Shown here: in pieces, positions 53,515-62,665 of the stretch | How positions within the stretch are numbered: position 1 is the first letter of the stretch | Layout of the letters: each line of letters opens with the position of its first letter | From: Hyphococcus sp. | GTDB lineage: Bacteria; Pseudomonadota; Alphaproteobacteria; Caulobacterales; Parvularculaceae | Reading direction: 5' to 3' | Length of the DNA stretch: 62,665 nt | Assembly: GCA_028285645.1 (NCBI GenBank) | Contig: JANQOV010000001.1 | Span: 1-62,665 of the forward strand | The notes under the pieces: model-generated | Databases searched by the model: none | Told to the model about the DNA's origin: nothing | The model's input: only the letters and a program-made list of their open reading frames with translations | Translations under genes and position numbers: made by a program

Positions 53515-55281
53515 ATGAAAATGCAAGCGGTGTTGGGGGCGAGTGCAATGGCGCTTGTGCTGCTCATGAGCTCATCGGCGCTCAGTCTGCGCGGCGAGGA
53601 GCGAGACGACAAACCTTCGCAAAATATTGAGCGGGATGAACGGGCGAAAAATGACGCGCGCCGCCGCGACCGCGCAAGATATTTTCGCAAGCGCTTCCAT
53701 CGCGGCCGAGAGATTCGTTCAATGGACGGCTCCGGCAACAACCAGCTTGATCCTCTGGCGGGCGCCAGCTTCCAACAGTTTCAGCGTCTCGCGCCGGTAG
53801 GATATGCTGACAGCATCGCAACGATGGCGGGTCCCTTGCGCAAAAGCCCGCGCGAGATCAGCAACCTTGTCGCCGCGCAGGAACGTTCACTGCCGAACCA
53901 TTTCGGCGCCAGCGATTTTCTATGGCAGTGGGGACAGTTCCTCGATCACGACCTGTCGCTCGGCGACGAGGTTGCAAGCGCGGATCGTTCCTTCGACATC
54001 AAGATTCCTGCTGGCGATTCTTATTTTGATCCGGCGGGAAACGGCGACAAAACAATGCACTTTAACCGCGCGCTCAGCGACGCAGAAACCGGAACGGACC
54101 TCGCCAATCCTCGTCAACAGGTGAACGAGATCACCTCCTGGATCGACGGATCAATGGTCTATGGTTCAAGCGACGAGCGCGCAACGGCGCTGCGGACAAA
54201 TGACGGGACCGGGCGCCTGCGCACCAGCCGCGGCGGACTGTTGCCGTTCAATACAGACGGCCTGCCAAACGCCAACGGCCCGGCGCCTGACCCGGCAAAG
54301 CTGTTCCTCGCGGGCGACGTGCGCGCGAATGAGCAGGTTGGACTGGCCGCCATGCACATTTTATTCGTGCGCGAACACAATCGATGGGCCAAGCGTATTC
54401 GCAAAGCCCGTCCTCACTATTCCGGCGACGATATCTATCACGCAGCACGGCGCATGGTGATCGCCGAGATCCAGATCATCACCTATAACGAGTTCCTGCC
54501 GGCGCTGATTGGCGAAGGCGCGATCCCGCCTTATCGCGGCTATACGCCTGGAAACGCGACGATCTTCAATGAGTTTTCGGGCGCTGCATATCGTCTCGGC
54601 CACAGCCTGATCAACACCAACCTGTTGCGTCTCAATCGTCGCGGACGCGAGATTCGAAATGGTCACCTTGCGCTTCGCGATGCGTTTTTTAATGCGCCAT
54701 CTTTGTTGAAGCGGCGCAACGACATTGACCCGATCCTGCGCGGCCTGGCGGCGCAGAAAAGTCAAACGATTGATCCCAAAATCGTTGATGATCTCAGAAA
54801 TTTCCTGTTCGGACCGCCCGGCGCCGGCGGCTTCGATCTCGCGTCGCTGAACATTCAACGCGGGCGCGACCTTGGCCTGCCATCCTATAACGACGCCCGC
54901 GTCGCCATGGGCCTACCGCGTGTTTCGGATTTCGATGAGATTTCGTCAGACCCGGCTGTGCAATATACGCTATATAACGCTTACGGTTTAGTCGACAACA
55001 TCGACCTTTGGGTTGGCGGCCTTGCGGAAGATGCTTTAACGTCAGAAGGCTCGCAGCTCGGGCCCCTTTTCCGCGCGATCGTTATCCGTCAGTTCACAGC
55101 ATTGCGCGATCATGATCGCTTTTGGCACGAGCGCGACCTGACGCACGCGGAGCTGGCGATGCTAAGACGAACAAGTCTTTCGAAAATCATCAAAGCCAAC
55201 ACGAATATTCGCGGCAAAGAAATCCCGCGAAACGTCTTTTACGTTCGCCGCAACAAGCGCGACACAGGGCTTGATGATTGA
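53515..55281 (+). CDS. Animal-type haem peroxidase, exported
   Basis: The 588-residue protein has a signal peptide (MKMQAVLGASAMALVLLMSSSALS). The peroxidase-cyclooxygenase domain keeps the myeloperoxidase residues. These are distal Gln141, Asp144 and His145 in GQFLDHDLSL; Arg270 and Glu273 in AGDVRANEQV; REHNRWAKRI; and proximal His363 in AAYRLGHSLIN. The calcium loop TSWIDGSMVYGSS (about 207-219) is present. Asp144 and Glu273 occupy positions that in mammals form haem ester links. It would oxidise halides or small molecules outside the cytosol. A terminator follows it. Confidence 0.92.
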   Translation: MKMQAVLGASAMALVLLMSSSALSLRGEERDDKPSQNIERDERAKNDARRRDRARYFRKRFHRGREIRSMDGSGNNQLDPLAGASFQQFQRLAPVGYADSIATMAGPLRKSPREISNLVAAQERSLPNHFGASDFLWQWGQFLDHDLSLGDEVASADRSFDIKIPAGDSYFDPAGNGDKTMHFNRALSDAETGTDLANPRQQVNEITSWIDGSMVYGSSDERATALRTNDGTGRLRTSRGGLLPFNTDGLPNANGPAPDPAKLFLAGDVRANEQVGLAAMHILFVREHNRWAKRIRKARPHYSGDDIYHAARRMVIAEIQIITYNEFLPALIGEGAIPPYRGYTPGNATIFNEFSGAAYRLGHSLINTNLLRLNRRGREIRNGHLALRDAFFNAPSLLKRRNDIDPILRGLAAQKSQTIDPKIVDDLRNFLFGPPGAGGFDLASLNIQRGRDLGLPSYNDARVAMGLPRVSDFDEISSDPAVQYTLYNAYGLVDNIDLWVGGLAEDALTSEGSQLGPLFRAIVIRQFTALRDHDRFWHERDLTHAELAMLRRTSLSKIIKANTNIRGKEIPRNVFYVRRNKRDTGLDD

Positions 55282-55356: not shown

Positions 55357-57474
55357 TTAAGCGGCAAGCACCGACAATAAAAGCAAGGCCACGATATTGG
55401 TGATCTTGATCATCGGGTTAACGGCGGGGCCAGCCGTATCCTTGTAAGGATCGCCCACCGTATCGCCGGTGACGGCGGCTTTGTGGGCTTCAGAACCCTT
55501 GCCGCCATGATGGCCGTCTTCGATGTACTTTTTAGCGTTGTCCCAGGCGCCGCCGCCGGCGGTCATGGAAAGCGCCACAAAAAGCCCGGTGACAATAACG
55601 CCCATGAGCATGGCGCCAACTGCCGACAGAGCAGCGGATTTATCCGCAACGAGGCCGACGACAAAGTAGACCACAAGCGGCGAAAGGATCGGCAACAGCG
55701 AAGGCTTAACCATCTCCTTGATGGCGGCGCGGGTCAGCATATCTACCGCACGGCCGTAATTCGGCTTCGACGTTCCCGCCATGATGCCCTCATCTTCGCG
55801 GAATTGCTTGCGCACTTCCTCAACCACCGACCCGGCGGCGCGTCCAACCGACTGCATCGCCCAGGCGCCAAAGAGGAAGGGCAACAGACCGCCGATAAAG
55901 AGGCCGACAACCACATATGGATTGGACAGCGAGAAATCGATCGCGACATCCGCGAAGAATGGAAACTCATCCGGGTGCGCAACAAAGTGGTTGATGTCTT
56001 CCGTATAGGCGGCAAACAAGACAAGCGCGCCAAGGCCCGCAGACCCAATGGCGTAGCCCTTGGTGACCGCTTTGGTGGTGTTGCCAACGGCGTCGAGCGC
56101 GTCTGTCGTATCGCGTACCGACCCTTCAAGGCCTGACATTTCCGCAATGCCGCCGGCGTTGTCCGTTACCGGACCAAACGCGTCGAGGGCGACAATCATG
56201 CCCGCAAGCGCAAGCATGGTCGTAACCGCCGTTGCGATGCCGTAAAGGCCGGCAAGGTTAAACGTTGTGATAATACCGACAACGATGACCAACGCCGGCA
56301 AGGCTGTAGCTTCCATGGAAACCGCAAGGCCTTGGATAACATTGGTGCCGTGACCGGATTCGGACGCCGCAGCGACTGACTTTACCGGCCGAAAGGCGGT
56401 GCCGGTATAATACTCCGTGATCCAGACGATCAGTCCCGTCACCACCAGTCCGACAACGCCGCACAAAAAGAGGCTAAGGCCGGAAAACTCCGTCCCAGGA
56501 ATCGTCTCTCCGACCGGAAACATGGAGAAGGTCACAGCAGCGATGGCGATCAGTGACAAAACGCCAGTGACGATCAGGCCTTTGTAGAGCGCGCCCATGA
56601 CATTGGTGGAACCCTTGCCGAGGCTCACCGCAAAGGTGCCGATGATCGACGTCACGATGCAGACCGCGCCGATGGCCAGCGGGTAAAACATGAACTGCCC
56701 GGCGTTGGCGGTGTAAAGAATTGACCCAAGCACCATAGTCGCGGCGACCGTCACCACATAGGTTTCAAAGAGGTCAGCAGCCATGCCGGCGCAATCGCCG
56801 ACATTGTCGCCGACATTGTCAGCAATCGTCGCCGGGTTGCGCGGATCATCTTCCGGGATGCCTGCTTCGACCTTACCTACAAGGTCGCCGCCAACGTCAG
56901 CGCCCTTGGTGAAGATGCCGCCGCCAAGACGCGCGAACACCGAGATCAAGGAAGCGCCAAGCGAAAGCGCCACAAGACCGTTAATGACGGTTCTGTCTTC
57001 CGGCGCACTGCCAAGGCCATAGACCAGGAAGGCGTAGTAGCCGGCAAGGCCCAAAAGCGCGAGGCCAGCCACAAGCATGCCGGTAATGGCGCCGGCGCGG
57101 AAGGCAACCGAAAGGCCCTTGCCGATTGACTCGCTCGACGCCTGCGTGGTGCGCACATTGGCGCGCACGGAAACCAGCATGCCGATGAAGCCTGCTGCGC
57201 CCGAAAGCACAGCGCCAATGGCGAAGCCTGCGGCCGGAATCCAATCCAGCCTGAACGCAAATAATAGAATAAGGAACACCACCAGACCGGCGATGCCGAT
57301 CGTCGTGTATTGCCGGTTCAAATAGGCTTGCGCGCCCTCCTGAATCGCGGCCGCAATTTCTCTCATACGGTCGTTGCCCGTCGGCAGCGACATCACCGCA
57401 TTTACGGTGAAGGCGCCATACGCAATCGCGAGCAAGCCGGCCGCAATGACCAACCAAAGCTCTAAGCTCATCAT
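55357..57474 (-). CDS. hppA: Proton-translocating membrane pyrophosphatase, K+-independent type
   Basis: HppA hydrolyses pyrophosphate and pumps protons across the membrane. The 705-residue protein has about 16 helices. Its catalytic loops include [20 protein letters not shown] (about 188-207), [13 protein letters not shown], and the C-terminal [12 protein letters not shown]. The segment [15 protein letters not shown] has Lys where K+-dependent forms have Ala, which marks the K+-independent class. It could recover energy from pyrophosphate released by fatty-acid activation in the adjacent ceramide cluster, though that link is inferred. It ends at the shared terminator. Confidence 0.96.
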
Positions 57475-57672: not shown

Positions 57673-58440
57673 TCAGACAGCGTCTGGCCGCATGCCGCCC
57701 TTGGCCTTGGGCTCCGCATCGGTCAACTGCTTTACCCAAGGAAACTTCTTGGCCATTTCGTCTGTGTAACCAAGATTGCGGGCTGTGGCGGTCCGGGGAA
57801 TATCCTCCGCCTCCTCATAGAAGGTGCCGAACACTTTATCCCAGAAAAATTCAGCGATGCCGTAATTTCCCTGCTCATTATGAAAATGATGCGCAAGGTG
57901 ACGCTTTTTCATGACCTTCCAGAAGGTTGATTTCGGCTCAAACGCCAGATGCTCGCCTGCGTGCAGGAACTCCGTCACGCACGTCATGAAAACGGTGCCG
58001 GCGACCGCGCCCGCCGCCCCGGCGGGTCCGCTGATCAGCCAGCCAACCGGCGCCGCAACAACCAAAATCGTTGGCAACGTCGTATGAAGACCACCGAATA
58101 ACACTGATAAATCATTGGGGTAGCGGTGATGATCGTAATGTATGCGTTTCCACAATTTAGCCAGGTAAGGCGATTTATACATCCAGCTTCCGTGCAGGAT
58201 GAAGCGATGAATGAAGTACCAGGCGATCGGGAACAACAACGCACCCACTGCGAATGAGCCGGCAAATAGCCAGAACGAGGTCATGGTCGCAAAGCCGATT
58301 GCAAGCGTCGCGACAATCACAACCGCATAGACCTGGATCGCCGGATAGGTGACATAGGCGCGGAGAAGGTCGTCAAATGTCATGCGATTGAGGAGATACT
58401 CCTCCTCTTTCCAGGCCTTATATCCAATAAAAAGCCGCAT
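57673..58440 (-). CDS. Di-iron fatty-acid/sterol hydroxylase family protein, candidate ceramide hydroxylase
   Basis: The 255-residue protein has membrane helices at about 32-75 and 125-155 and the histidine boxes of the fatty-acid hydroxylase superfamily. These are H78-x4-H83 (HRFILH), H101-x2-HH104-105 (HYDHH), H160-x3-H164 (HAGEH) and H181-x2-HH184-185 with H187 (HLAHHFH). The sequence FIHRFILHGSWMYKS resembles FA2H/Scs7-type enzymes, which hydroxylate the 2-position of ceramide acyl chains. It is divergent from the ceramide genes with a 377-base gap, so shared control and a sphingolipid role are plausible but inferred. A carotenoid or plain lipid hydroxylase is the alternative. Confidence 0.75.
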   Translation of the reverse strand: MRLFIGYKAWKEEEYLLNRMTFDDLLRAYVTYPAIQVYAVVIVATLAIGFATMTSFWLFAGSFAVGALLFPIAWYFIHRFILHGSWMYKSPYLAKLWKRIHYDHHRYPNDLSVLFGGLHTTLPTILVVAAPVGWLISGPAGAAGAVAGTVFMTCVTEFLHAGEHLAFEPKSTFWKVMKKRHLAHHFHNEQGNYGIAEFFWDKVFGTFYEEAEDIPRTATARNLGYTDEMAKKFPWVKQLTDAEPKAKGGMRPDAV

Positions 58441-58817
58441 GGGCGACGCTCCCGGCAGTCATGGGGTTTCGAATTCTAGGGTACTGATGGGTGTACTAGC
58501 TAAGCCGCAATCAAGCGAGAAACAAGATAGCGCAGGGCCCCAAGTCACGAAAATTGGTAAACTGTAACATCCTTGCGCAAAACTTGACCAAAGGCGCCGA
58601 CACACGCCCTTGCCGGCTTGTCTAAGGGGTTGTATTCGCTCAATATTGCCGATTGCGATTGGGGATGGTGACACCATCGCTTTAAAGGTTAGGATGGTGC
58701 GATGCGTCTCAACGCAACAGGGCGGGTGCAAGAACCTCAAATTGAATCGGGATTTGGGGAAATCCTGATGGTAGGTGAAAACGCCGGGCGGAAAACCGGC
58801 AAAGTGCGGGGGCGTTA
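58441..58817 (+). promoter_or_regulatory. Divergent region between the hydroxylase gene and ceramide cluster
   Basis: This 377-base stretch has no supported gene. The only sizeable reading frame on the minus strand (58459-58740) is Cys/Pro-rich and unlike a family. It holds a perfect inverted repeat GATGGT-GAC-ACCATC at 58664-58678 and a further GATGGT at 58693, which could be an operator. TTGACC at 58582 is a possible -35. It should contain the promoters of both divergent transcripts. Confidence 0.4.
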
Positions 58818-60626
58818 ATGGCCGTCAATTCAAGTCGGACGCCGGCTGAAAATGCATCGGGCGAAACCATCAAACCGACGCCGTCGGTCAATGATGCGTT
58901 GCCGTTCAAAATTTGCGATACGCTGACGCTCGTTGAAGTGCTCGATTACGCAGCGCAAGGTTCGACCGGGTATAATTTCTTCGACTTACGCGGCGCCGTT
59001 AAAGAAACGCTGCCTTACTCAGCTTTGCGCGACCGCGCTCGCACCCTGGCGGAAAAACTCTCCGCACGATTTAAGCGCGGCGACCGGATCGCCATCGTTG
59101 CAGAAACAAGTTCCGATTTTGTCGTAGCGTTTTTCGCTTGTCAGTATGCAGGGATTATCCCGGCGCCAATGCCGATGCCGGTCAATCTCGGCGGCAAAGA
59201 CGGATACCTCAATCAGATCCGGCAAATGATCACGGGCGCCGGCGCAGTAGCGGCAATTGGGCCGGAAACCCTGACATCCTTTCTCGACGAGGCGACCGAG
59301 AACGTAGAAGGCGTTGAAGTCTTGAGTTTCGACGCCCTTAATGCGTTAGAAGAAAAAGCTGCGGCGACTTCGTTTTCCGCCGACGAAGAGTGCTACATCC
59401 AATATTCGTCGGGGTCCACAAGCGCGCCCAAGGGCGTCATCGGCACCCAAAAATCTGTAATGAGCAATCTTGTTGCGATTTCCCGCGACGGTCTTCACGC
59501 AAGAAAAGGCGACCGCGGTGCAAGCTGGTTGCCGCTCTACCACGATATGGGCCTGATCGGGTTCCTCCTGGCGCCGATGATCTCACAAATGTCTGTGGAT
59601 TATCTGACCACGTCGGATTTCGTCCGCAGACCGCTTTTGTGGCTGCGCATGATCACCGAACACGGCGCGACCCTTACCTACAGCCCATCCTTCGGGTACG
59701 AGCTTGCCGCAAAGCGTTCAGCGCGCGCGGAGCCTGGAGCGATTGACTTATCTAATGTCCGCGTCGCTGGGATTGGCGGCGACATGGTGCGGCCCGAGGC
59801 CCTTAACGCATTCGCTGACGCATTCGAACCTTGCGGCTTTGACCGCACCGCATTTACGCCAAGCTATGGCATGGCTGAAGCAACACTGGCGATTTCATTT
59901 CCGGAACTTGGCGCGCCCTTTGTGGTCGATGAAGTTGATATGCGTCACTACACCAGATCGGGCGTGGCGCAGCCGGCGTCTGCAGTGACCTCGCCGGAGC
60001 ATAAGCGCGGCTTTGTGTTATGTGGTCGGGCGCTGCCGGGCCACGCAATAGAAGTCCGCGATGACAATGGCGACGCAGCGGGCGAACGCGTTGTGGGGCG
60101 CATATTCATCAAAGGACCAAGCCTTACGCCAGGCTATTTCTCAGATCCCGAAGCCTCCGCTGCGATGTATCATGGCAAGTGGCTCGATACTGGAGACATG
60201 GGCTACATTCTTGACGGTCAGATTGTCATCACCGGCCGCGCGAAAGACCTCATCATCATCAACGGCCGCAATATCTGGCCGCAAGATATCGAATGGGCGG
60301 TAGAAAAAGTTGAAGGCGTCAGAAGCGGCGGCGTCGCAGCATTTTCCGTCGATGACGGCATCGACGAACGCATTGTCGTGGTGGCCGAACGCCGGGGTAT
60401 GGACGACGACGCGCGTAACGAATTAAAACGCGAAATTGCGCGGGTCATCCAGAATGCAGCCGGTGCGCCAGCAGAAGTGGTGCTTGCGCGGCCGCACTCC
60501 ATGGTGATGACGTCGTCTGGAAAGTTGTCACGGGCAAAGGTCAAACAGAAATTTCTGGACGGCGCGTTTGCTGATGACGCCTCTGCACGCGCACCCGTAC
60601 GCGCACTTGCTGAAGCGCGGGGTTAA
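58818..60626 (+). CDS. aasR: Fatty acyl-AMP ligase, probable acyl-ACP synthetase of ceramide synthesis
   Basis: The 602-residue adenylate-forming enzyme has the ATP loop QYSSGSTSAPKGV (about 195-207), the FAAL-type WLPLYHDMGLIGFLL (about 237-251), GMAEATLAIS, and the C-terminal core GRAKDLIIINGRNIWPQDIE. WLPLYHDMG is a hallmark of acyl-AMP ligases that load an acyl carrier protein rather than CoA. It would charge the dedicated carrier protein encoded two genes on. The symbol follows the Caulobacter ceramide gene named AasR, as I recall it. It is first in the cluster and ends three bases before the next gene. Confidence 0.85.
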   Translation: MAVNSSRTPAENASGETIKPTPSVNDALPFKICDTLTLVEVLDYAAQGSTGYNFFDLRGAVKETLPYSALRDRARTLAEKLSARFKRGDRIAIVAETSSDFVVAFFACQYAGIIPAPMPMPVNLGGKDGYLNQIRQMITGAGAVAAIGPETLTSFLDEATENVEGVEVLSFDALNALEEKAAATSFSADEECYIQYSSGSTSAPKGVIGTQKSVMSNLVAISRDGLHARKGDRGASWLPLYHDMGLIGFLLAPMISQMSVDYLTTSDFVRRPLLWLRMITEHGATLTYSPSFGYELAAKRSARAEPGAIDLSNVRVAGIGGDMVRPEALNAFADAFEPCGFDRTAFTPSYGMAEATLAISFPELGAPFVVDEVDMRHYTRSGVAQPASAVTSPEHKRGFVLCGRALPGHAIEVRDDNGDAAGERVVGRIFIKGPSLTPGYFSDPEASAAMYHGKWLDTGDMGYILDGQIVITGRAKDLIIINGRNIWPQDIEWAVEKVEGVRSGGVAAFSVDDGIDERIVVVAERRGMDDDARNELKREIARVIQNAAGAPAEVVLARPHSMVMTSSGKLSRAKVKQKFLDGAFADDASARAPVRALAEARG

Positions 60627-60629
60627 TCC

Positions 60630-61559
60630 TTGAAAGCAGCCGTTACCGGCGGCGGCGGCTTTGTCGGCGGCGCGCTTGTGAACCGTCTCATCAAAGACGG
60701 CTGGCAGGTGCGCTTGCTGGCGCGCGATCCCAAAAGGCTTGCCGCTGACCTCAACGCTGAGATTGTTACCGGCGATCTCGACAATGCGGATGCGCTTGGC
60801 CAGCTCGCCCAGTCGACGGATGTTTTCTTCCATCTCGCGGGCGTTACTCATGCGCGCGATGACGCAATCTATCACGCCGTCAATGTCAAAGGCGCAGCCA
60901 ACGCCGCCGCCGCTGCGGCCGACGCCGGCGCCAAACTCGTCCATGCTTCTTCCATGTCAGCGCGCCTTCCCGCTGCGTCGCCTTATGCCCAGAGTAAGTT
61001 CGACAGCGAACAGGCGGTGAAATCAGCGAGCGGCGACAATCCATGGCTGGCGCTTCGATTGCCCGCTATTTACGGCCCCCGCGATTTTGCGACGCTGCCC
61101 TATTTCAAGCTGGTCAAATCTGGCTGGGCGCTCGAACCGCGGACTGATGAGCCCGCCCGCGCCTCGCTGCTCTATGTGGAGGACGCAGCCGGGGCGCTCA
61201 TCGCCGCCGCCAAGGCCGCCCCGACAGGCGAGATATATGAAGTCGGCGACGAACAGCCGCACGGCCATAAATGGCGCGAAATCGCCGAAATTCTGGGCGC
61301 CGTCCTTGGGAAATCCCCCCGCAAATTAAGGGCGCCGCGCCCGATTGTTTCGGGATATCATAGTCTTGTTCGAAACGCTGAGCGCTTATTAGGGAAAGCG
61401 CCGAGCCTGCGGACGGGCCAGGTCAACGAGTTTTTCCACGCCGATTGGGCGGCGCGTGAAAACCTCTTATCTAAGGCTTGCGATTGGGCCCCCGAAACGC
61501 CGCTTGAAGAAGGATTTGCAAAAACCGTACGCTGGTATCAAGACAATGGGCTGTTATAG
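60630..61559 (+). CDS. cerR: NAD-dependent epimerase/dehydratase family protein, probable ceramide reductase CerR
   Basis: The 309-residue extended SDR uses a TTG start (MKAAVTGGGGFVGGALV); no ATG precedes the conserved nucleotide motif. The dinucleotide site is TGGGGFVGGALVNRL. The catalytic Ser and Tyr-x3-Lys are in VHASSMSARL and SPYAQSKFDSE. Its place between the acyl ligase and the carrier protein matches the Caulobacter order for CerR, which reduces the 3-oxo group of the sphingoid backbone or ceramide. The 3' end ends NNGLL-like (RWYQDNGLL). It starts three bases after the ligase stop. Confidence 0.82.
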   Translation: MKAAVTGGGGFVGGALVNRLIKDGWQVRLLARDPKRLAADLNAEIVTGDLDNADALGQLAQSTDVFFHLAGVTHARDDAIYHAVNVKGAANAAAAAADAGAKLVHASSMSARLPAASPYAQSKFDSEQAVKSASGDNPWLALRLPAIYGPRDFATLPYFKLVKSGWALEPRTDEPARASLLYVEDAAGALIAAAKAAPTGEIYEVGDEQPHGHKWREIAEILGAVLGKSPRKLRAPRPIVSGYHSLVRNAERLLGKAPSLRTGQVNEFFHADWAARENLLSKACDWAPETPLEEGFAKTVRWYQDNGLL

Positions 61560-61620: not shown

Positions 61621-61884
61621 ATGTCCAGCATTCAACAGGACGACGATCTCGTCTTTCACAAAATTTGTTCGCTGCTTGAGCCTCTGAACGAAAAGGGGAT
61701 AACGCTCGCCCGCGAGACAGATCTCATTGCCGATCTCGAGATCGACAGTGTGTCGGTTCTGGATATCGTGATGGATATCGAGGACAATTACGACATCTCC
61801 ATCCCTGTAAACACGATTTCCGAAATCAAGACGATTGGCGAACTGGTGGACGCCATTCATGCGATTAAGAAAGAGCAAGCCTGA
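61621..61884 (+). CDS. acpR: Acyl carrier protein of the ceramide cluster
   Basis: The 87-residue protein has a typical carrier fold. The phosphopantetheine site is Ser43 in ADLEIDSVSVLDIVMD; the usual DSL is DSV here. AAGGAG lies just before the start. It is separated from cerR by 61 bases and from spt by three. A private carrier beside serine palmitoyltransferase suggests the substrate is supplied as acyl-ACP rather than acyl-CoA. It is distinct from the general AcpP. Confidence 0.9.
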   Translation: MSSIQQDDDLVFHKICSLLEPLNEKGITLARETDLIADLEIDSVSVLDIVMDIEDNYDISIPVNTISEIKTIGELVDAIHAIKKEQA

Positions 61885-61887
61885 CCG

Positions 61888-62665
61888 ATGAGCCTGTTCG
61901 ATAAGTTCGAAAAAACAGCTGAGCTTTATTACGGTTTGGCGGAAGCGGACGCCAATCCATTTACTGTGGTGATGGAGGACGTGATCGGGCCGACGCGCGC
62001 GATTATCAAGGGCCGCGAAACAGTGCTAGCCGGCACCCACAATTATCTCGGGCAAACATTCGAACAAAAAGCCATCGACGCCGCCAAGAAAGCGCTGGAC
62101 GAAGACGGCACGGGCACTACCGGATCCCGCTTCGCCAATGGCACGTTTTCCGCGCACAAAGCGCTCGAACGAGATATCGCCGCCTTTTTGGGCATGCAGC
62201 ATTGCGTGATATTTTCGACCGGATACGTCGCAAATCTCGGCGCTATAGCCGGGCTCATCAATCCAGCAGAAGATGTCGTTCTGATCGATGCAGACTGCCA
62301 TGCCTGTATTTATGACGGCTGCCAGCTCGCCGGCGCGGAAACCATCCGGTTCCGGCATAATGACCCGGAAAGTCTTGATAAGCGCCTTGGCCGCGTTGAT
62401 CCGAATACGAAGGGTAAACTTGTCTGCATTGAAGGCATGTACTCCATGTATGGCGATATTGCGCCGGTGGCTGAATTTGTTGAAGTCGCCCACAAGCACG
62501 GCGCCTATTTGCTCGTCGATGAGGCGCATTCCTTTGGCGTCTATGGCGAGACCGGTAAGGGCGTCTCGGAAGCCGAAGGCGTCATGGATAAGATCGATTT
62601 TTATACGGGCACGTTTTCGAAGAGCCTGGCTGCCATCGGCGGTTTTGTGGTGTCAAACCATAAGG
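61888..62665 (+). CDS. spt: Serine palmitoyltransferase, partial (C-terminus outside window)
   Basis: The visible 259 residues are the N-terminal two thirds of an alpha-oxoamine synthase. The segment THNYLGQTFEQKAID is SPT-like. The PLP contacts are His138 in DADCHACIYDG, Asp211 and His214 in LLVDEAHSFGVYG, and the Schiff-base Lys245 in GTFSKSLAAIGGF. The enzyme condenses serine with a fatty acyl thioester to 3-ketosphinganine, the first step of ceramide synthesis. It follows the carrier protein by three bases. The gene runs off the right edge. AONS or KBL homologues are less likely given this context. Confidence 0.9.
   Translation, partial: MSLFDKFEKTAELYYGLAEADANPFTVVMEDVIGPTRAIIKGRETVLAGTHNYLGQTFEQKAIDAAKKALDEDGTGTTGSRFANGTFSAHKALERDIAAFLGMQHCVIFSTGYVANLGAIAGLINPAEDVVLIDADCHACIYDGCQLAGAETIRFRHNDPESLDKRLGRVDPNTKGKLVCIEGMYSMYGDIAPVAEFVEVAHKHGAYLLVDEAHSFGVYGETGKGVSEAEGVMDKIDFYTGTFSKSLAAIGGFVVSNHK

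Follow-up and report, generated by a model that had tools for sequence, protein, structure and literature searches.

A gene at positions 57673 to 58440 on the minus strand of the window, by which we mean the whole stretch of 62,665 bases that was analysed, very probably encodes a membrane di-iron hydroxylase of the bacterial ceramide pathway. We refer to this gene and its orthologues as FAH. By analogy with Scs7 and FA2H, the protein is likely to hydroxylate the amide-linked acyl chain of (dihydro)ceramide, probably at C-2, and we describe it as a probable ceramide N-acyl hydroxylase of the FA2H/Scs7-like type. The observations behind this reading are the protein family, an intact set of histidines, a fold match, co-occurrence with the serine palmitoyltransferase gene spt, adjacency to a presumed cerS gene, and the occupation of the same slot by another di-iron family elsewhere. 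From them we infer the activity, the acyl chain rather than the base as its target, the C-2 position, the form of the substrate, and the electron donor.

Protein family and predicted di-metal site

The open reading frame encodes 255 amino acids from an ATG start and runs exactly between the positions at which the original prediction had placed it. We aligned the protein of the window with those of 80 fetched loci, the 80 most similar of 295 relatives rather than a random draw. The start codon is backed by the seven nearest loci, which align from residue 1, and by W10, which is present in 80 of the 81 aligned proteins. A Pfam profile search placed FAH in PF04116 with 78.1 bits (cut-off 31; E 1.1e-21), and this was the sole Pfam match across the 255 residues. 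No cytochrome b5 domain was found, and neither the FA_desaturase profile (PF00487) nor a P450 domain matched at E <= 0.01. The genome to which the window belongs, which is 86.6% complete, holds one copy of FAH.

Four intact histidine boxes had been described in the original prediction, and all ten of their histidines are in place on the minus strand. Box 1 (HX4H; H78 and H83; positions 58192 to 58209), box 2 (HX2HH, reading HYDHH; H101, H104, and H105; 58126 to 58140), and box 3 (HX3H; H160 and H164; 57949 to 57963) are conserved in 81 of 81 proteins. Box 4 (HX2HH, reading HLAHH; H181, H184, and H185; 57886 to 57900) is conserved in 80, 81, and 81 proteins, respectively, so that nine of the ten histidines are invariant across the window and the best 80 of 295 relatives. 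Judged by sequence, the four boxes predict a di-metal site. Assignment to the FA2H/Scs7 superfamily also held up. Scs7 was the only profile match in the PDB (E 5.5e-16), and all ten box histidines fall on histidines of Scs7, with box 1 aligned to HRFLFH, box 2 to HGCHH, box 3 to two histidines, and box 4 to HLEHH.

An AlphaFold2 model, for which 38 of the 81 proteins served as input, had a mean pLDDT of 87.8 and four helices of at least 20 residues. When the model was compared with the PDB using Foldseek, only four chains matched at E <= 0.001, all of them Scs7 (for 4zr1_B, E 4.2e-05 and TM 0.61), while the next-best structure had an E value of 1.3. FAH therefore shares the fold and the histidine spacing of the Scs7 hydroxylase domain, in a comparison where PF04116 subfamilies lacking a solved structure could not compete. 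In the mechanism that we propose, the ten histidines, borne by a scaffold of membrane helices, would coordinate two iron atoms. With O2 and two electrons from a separate donor, FAH itself having no cytochrome b5 domain, a C-H bond of the acyl chain would become C-OH.

In a tree of FAH proteins, that of the window is nested within a Marinicaulis/Parvularcula clade (support 100/91). We take the window's family (f1) to be Parvularculaceae from this placement and from the identical spt coordinates of G124, an f1 member, and the genome of L011 (Parvularcula dongshanensis, G448). L011 sits on a long branch joining the Nitrospirota rows, which leaves their placement unsure. Two bins labelled Rhizobium sp. 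contain identical hydroxylases, and a bin labelled Candidatus Kuenenia contains a very similar one (L030, L034, L047). All three adjoin a Sphingomonadales bin in the tree, and their labels probably reflect foreign contigs.

Co-occurrence with spt

The original prediction had tied FAH to spt, and had taken occurrence mainly without spt or beside carotenoid genes as grounds for abandoning the link. The outcome was the opposite, with spt as a near-constant companion. We drew two samples by taxonomy: 150 genomes of the window's order, in which spt was called by NF047599 at E <= 1e-100, and 289 genomes of its class, in which FAH was called at E <= 1e-20. FAH orthologues (195 to 593 bits, against 26 bits or less for other genes) were found in 18 of the 150 order genomes, own genome included. 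All 18 were among the 48 genomes with spt, and none of the 102 spt-less genomes carried FAH. At the level of the class, FAH was found in 33 of 289 genomes and spt in 43 (41 above the cut-off, with partial copies in the own genome and in G355). Both genes were present in 32 genomes, and FAH occurred in 1 of the 246 without spt. With the own genome left out, Fisher's test for co-occurrence gave p values of 2.9e-10 for the order and 3.3e-31 for the class, which overstate independence because the sampled genomes are related. The class exception, G428, has only a weak spt-like match (140 bits); its FAH adjoins lptF/lptG-like genes and an NTP transferase gene, with a cerS homologue 8 kb off (L131). 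In 17 of the 18 order genomes, FAH and spt lie within 10 kb on one contig, while in G124 they are 134 kb apart, also on one contig. A further draw, around G178, covered the 15 genomes of the order to which G178 belongs, probably not Sphingomonadales, and 13 of them carry FAH.

The fetched loci gave a similar picture. Among these best 80 of 295 relatives, 77 come from genomes with spt. The gene lies inside the locus in 47 cases and elsewhere in the genome for 30 of the other 33, 29 of these genomes having Spt above the cut-off and one (L010) having Spt in two contig pieces. The genome of L071 has only a 343-bit Spt match, with aasR beside FAH at a contig end, and no Spt was found in the genomes of L019 and L068. 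Distances between FAH proteins correlated with those between CerS, Spt, and CerR proteins (r 0.90 to 0.93), as shared ancestry alone would also yield. By its occurrence with spt and its clustering with the set, FAH belongs to the bacterial ceramide genes aasR-cerR-acpR-spt-cerS.

PF04116 also includes carotenoid, sterol, hopanoid, and ornithine-lipid hydroxylases, and FAH could in principle be one of these that lies near ceramide genes by chance, given that it has a weak match to the OlsE profile NF052566. That match, however, reached 16 bits against a cut-off of 475. In addition, co-occurrence with spt is near absolute in both taxonomy samples, linkage to the presumed cerS spans loci labelled Alphaproteobacteria, Gammaproteobacteria, and Nitrospirota, and no carotenoid gene was found among the flanking genes profiled, which came from a minority of the 80 loci. 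We regard a chance association as very unlikely, and the identities of carotenoid hydroxylase, OlsE, and plain sterol desaturase were rejected based on spt co-occurrence and neighbors.

Linkage to ceramide synthesis genes

In the window, FAH lies back to back with aasR-cerR-acpR-spt, as originally predicted. An intergenic region of 377 bp between the divergent start codons (58441 to 58817) leads to aasR (58818 to 60626, plus strand), an acyl-ACP synthetase of sphingolipid synthesis that was named by gene order and homology (PF00501; fatty acyl-AMP ligase NF006624, 733.7 bits). It is followed on the same strand by cerR (60630 to 61559), a reductase of ceramide synthesis of the NAD-dependent epimerase/3beta-HSD type placed as in G042 (L123), by acpR (61621 to 61884; PF00550), a specialised acyl carrier protein, and by spt (61888 to 62665; NF047599, 389.7 bits over positions 1 to 257 of 394). 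The window spans an entire contig, so that spt is truncated by the assembly; residues 1 to 259 of Spt, about two thirds of the protein, are present. The gap between FAH and aasR measures 352 to 755 bp between match ends in relatives (L002 to L004, L006 to L008). Promoter and terminator scans, including a promoter scan of the FAH/aasR intergenic region, returned nothing better than shuffled sequence.

Other neighbors recur as well. After FAH on the same strand lies hppA, which encodes a proton-pumping pyrophosphatase (55357 to 57474, minus strand) and stays close to the ceramide genes in L125 and L126, from two genomes of the window's family in which FAH is absent from that position. An animal-type heme peroxidase gene (53515 to 55281, plus strand; PF03098, E 1.5e-151) has homologues near the same ceramide cluster in L004, L006, and L007.

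The pairing of FAH with the ceramide cluster is real, but its tightest and most widespread form is not the divergent arrangement with aasR that the original prediction had emphasized. Of the 47 spt-holding loci within the set of 80 (the best of 295 relatives), 19 show that arrangement with all four genes: 6 belong to the window's clade, 11 to Nitrospirota, and 2 are labelled Gammaproteobacteria. Most of the 19 are metagenome bins. In contrast, a presumed cerS lies directly downstream of FAH on the same strand in 65 of the 80 loci, with 9 to 183 bp between match ends in 63 and an overlap in 2. The presumed cerS is elsewhere in the locus in another 12 of the 80, and was not seen in three loci where the contig ends nearby (L003, L005, L062). 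In five loci of the window's clade it instead follows spt.

The presumed CerS is a GNAT-like protein of about 390 amino acids. The GNAT name comes from a single match at the Pfam cut-off (L049, 20.7 bits), and the homologue in L045 had no match. We named the gene cerS because of its position in G042, a genome of the window's order, where a homologue comes after HIT-lptF-lptG and before an NTP transferase gene; this fits the published order CC_1157 to CC_1153 of C. crescentus, in which CC_1154 is cerS according to the available portion of PMC11324152. The order in Sphingomonas L049 is lptF-lptG-FAH-cerS. In Nitrospirota L045, FAH-cerS-NTP transferase runs divergently from aasR-cerR-acpR-spt, and a HIT gene separates the two groups. 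An apparent fusion of CerS and NTP transferase in L009 was dismissed as an artefact of choosing the longest open reading frame, the CerS match starting in another frame.

Taken together, co-occurrence with spt and adjacency to the presumed cerS support, as far as genomic sequence can, the suggestion that a hydroxylation step has been added to the ceramide pathway. FAH would act together with CerS, either on the acyl donor or on freshly made ceramide. Hydroxylation of a free or carrier-bound fatty acid before CerS is a tentative variant of our explanation rather than an exclusive alternative to it. The position of FAH directly upstream of the presumed cerS in 65 of the best 80 of 295 relatives would suit this variant, as would the precedent of P450SPalpha, whose substrates are free fatty acids, although the present data fit either donor or ceramide as the substrate. 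If hydroxylation of the amide-linked acyl chain is indeed the function of FAH, it would be an integral step in how these bacteria make and export ceramide. As a single gene beside cerS, FAH is an easy target for a knock-out.

A second di-iron family in the same slot

Among the PF00487 proteins of 12 genomes, three of them without spt, clustering yielded one type, here called DesB, that was seen in spt genomes only. A different cluster (A, the L093 type) was rejected as a sphingolipid gene, being also present in spt-less G002, G007, and G012. DesB was found in 16 of the 150 order genomes, all 16 with spt, and the own genome is without it. In 60 class genomes, it was carried by 4 of 11 with spt and no FAH, 2 of 31 with both spt and FAH, and 0 of 18 without spt. 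The four FAH-less carriers account for every f15 genome with spt in the class sample, and in each the order is lptF-lptG-DesB-cerS (L133, L138 to L140), with DesB in the slot held by FAH in Sphingomonas L049. We call f15 sphingomonad-like because its lptF and cerS share 55 to 77% identity with their counterparts in Sphingomonas L049. The occupation of one slot by two unrelated di-iron families has the appearance of a clear non-orthologous displacement.

The two genes do not exclude each other strictly. Within the window's family, 20 genomes other than the own have spt; 12 of them carry FAH only, 5 DesB only, 3 both, and 0 neither. One of the three with both, G134 (L124), has a broken FAH, with an internal stop and two matched pieces, the second of 40 bits. 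Over the 47 spt genomes of the order (own left out), exclusion was a trend only (p 0.07). FAH and DesB occur together in G010, G074, G209, and G226, where they could perform two different hydroxylations. In G209 (L132), DesB lies beside spt and FAH retains the slot between lptG and cerS, while G010 (L129) matches spt on two contigs, near FAH on one and with a cerS homologue following it on the other. None of the sphingolipid genes that we probed lay near DesB in ten order stretches (of 16 genomes), nor in G226. Neither gene was found in 17 of the 47 spt genomes of the order (own left out) and 7 of the 43 of the class, so the acyl hydroxylation step is either dispensable or served by further enzymes. 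Four alphaproteobacterial genomes with aasR-cerR-acpR-spt, G203 (L136), G253 (L137), G340 (L152), and G317 (L153), have neither FAH nor DesB, and may have a third hydroxylase or none.

PF04116 also includes sphingoid-base hydroxylases. Hydroxylation of the base at C-4, like that by yeast Sur2, would lead to phytoceramide-type lipids and would fit the linkage to spt and cerS equally well, but we consider it unlikely. Box 1 of FAH is HX4H, as in Scs7, whereas Sur2 and sterol enzymes have HX3H, and the usual neighbor of FAH is a presumed N-acyltransferase gene. Furthermore, the slot is occupied in f15 by a DesA-type gene, and the DesA-type step reported in the portion of PMC11324152 at hand concerns the acyl chain. 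That step belongs to CC_0202 (CCNA_00202), a DesA-family protein reported to hydroxylate the amide-linked acyl chain of C. crescentus ceramide at an undefined position (Stankeviciute 2022, as cited there). PMC11324152 gives m/z 720, beside 704, for the hydroxylated ceramide phosphoglycerate. Based on distribution, DesB is perhaps the orthologue of CC_0202. In each of three sampled g15 genomes PF00487 is represented by two genes, of which DesB, with its distribution, is the likelier counterpart, and DesB is missing from 4 of 8 spt-bearing g15 genomes.

2-Hydroxylation in sphingomonads

Sphingomonas and its relatives are marked taxonomically by 2-hydroxy fatty acids, a point also made in the title of a reference cited in PMC10002949. 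As described in the available part of PMC10002949, Sphingomonas species carry 2-hydroxyacyl sphingolipids, and the 2-hydroxylases cloned from them are P450s, not FA2H homologues. It could be argued from this that the P450 peroxygenase CYP152B1 (P450SPalpha) supplies the sphingomonad 2-hydroxy acid and that FAH does something else. Used as an exact pattern, which would miss variants of the motif, the CYP152 heme motif matched just 1 of 38 sphingomonad genomes that carry FAH. Since these genomes were picked for FAH, the figure shows how rarely P450SPalpha accompanies FAH rather than its overall frequency. The sole match (L122) is identical to P450SPalpha as crystallised (3awm), and therefore the pattern works. 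We accordingly think it improbable that CYP152B1 accounts for these acids while FAH serves another purpose. The genome with the match, Sphingomonas lacusdianchii (also that of L049), carries both candidate 2-hydroxylases. Another pattern match (L121, in the group around G178) lay in a frame read as MoeA-like and was discarded as no P450.

On balance, we lean toward a broader proposal, namely that the FAH clade serves as the general ceramide acyl 2-hydroxylase across most Sphingomonadales, Parvularculaceae, and Nitrospirota that bear sphingolipids, that it and not P450SPalpha makes the sphingomonad 2-hydroxyacyl chains, and that two unrelated di-iron families replaced each other between lptG2 and cerS. 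FAH may thus perform in Sphingomonas a step otherwise credited to P450SPalpha, an enzyme that rarely accompanied it in the tested genomes. Acyl hydroxylation also bears on the function of sphingolipids in outer membranes, because loss of CC_0202, and with it the ceramide acyl hydroxyl, leads to colistin resistance in C. crescentus, as stated in the part of PMC11324152 available.

Comparison with known systems

An N-terminal cytochrome b5 domain is typical of Scs7/FA2H-type enzymes. We have filed FAH as a PF04116 member and not as FA2H proper because it has no such domain and its activity is putative. A cytochrome b5-like domain is said, in the available text of PMC10002949, to have been left out of the FA2H model there. 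The original prediction knew of no established enzyme of this class for bacterial sphingolipids, a view that does not survive the literature. Functional FA2H-like 2-hydroxylases of myxobacteria (Ring, Schwar and Bode 2009, as cited in the available part of PMC10002949) and CC_0202 (in that of PMC11324152) are both in print. The word hydroxylase is absent from the main texts of PMC9386255 and PMC11334938, and we found no publication on a link between this gene and spt or cerS in the open-licence literature searched. Within that literature, the kind of enzyme is known, while the cerS/spt-linked clade, its linkage to cerS, and the slot in common with DesB appear to be new.

The known systems resemble FAH in different respects. 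P450SPalpha (CYP152B1 of Sphingomonas paucimobilis) likewise yields 2-hydroxy fatty acids in a sphingolipid producer, but it is a heme peroxygenase. CC_0202 shares the reported acyl-chain hydroxylation, and its possible orthologue DesB holds the FAH slot beside cerS in four sphingomonad-like genomes; yet DesB is of another Pfam family (PF00487 rather than PF04116), and CC_0202 sits outside the spt/cerS region of C. crescentus in the available portion of PMC11324152. The myxobacterial FA2H homologues, compared here by description only, are bacterial and FA2H-like with histidine motifs, and the cited title connects them with sphingolipid formation. As for Scs7 and FA2H, all ten box histidines of the hydroxylase domain align with those of FAH, the folds are alike (TM about 0.6), and the chemistry is presumed to be the same. 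FAH differs from them in its low identity (22 to 24% in the fold match), in having no cytochrome b5 domain, and in being coupled to a bacterial ceramide synthase gene.
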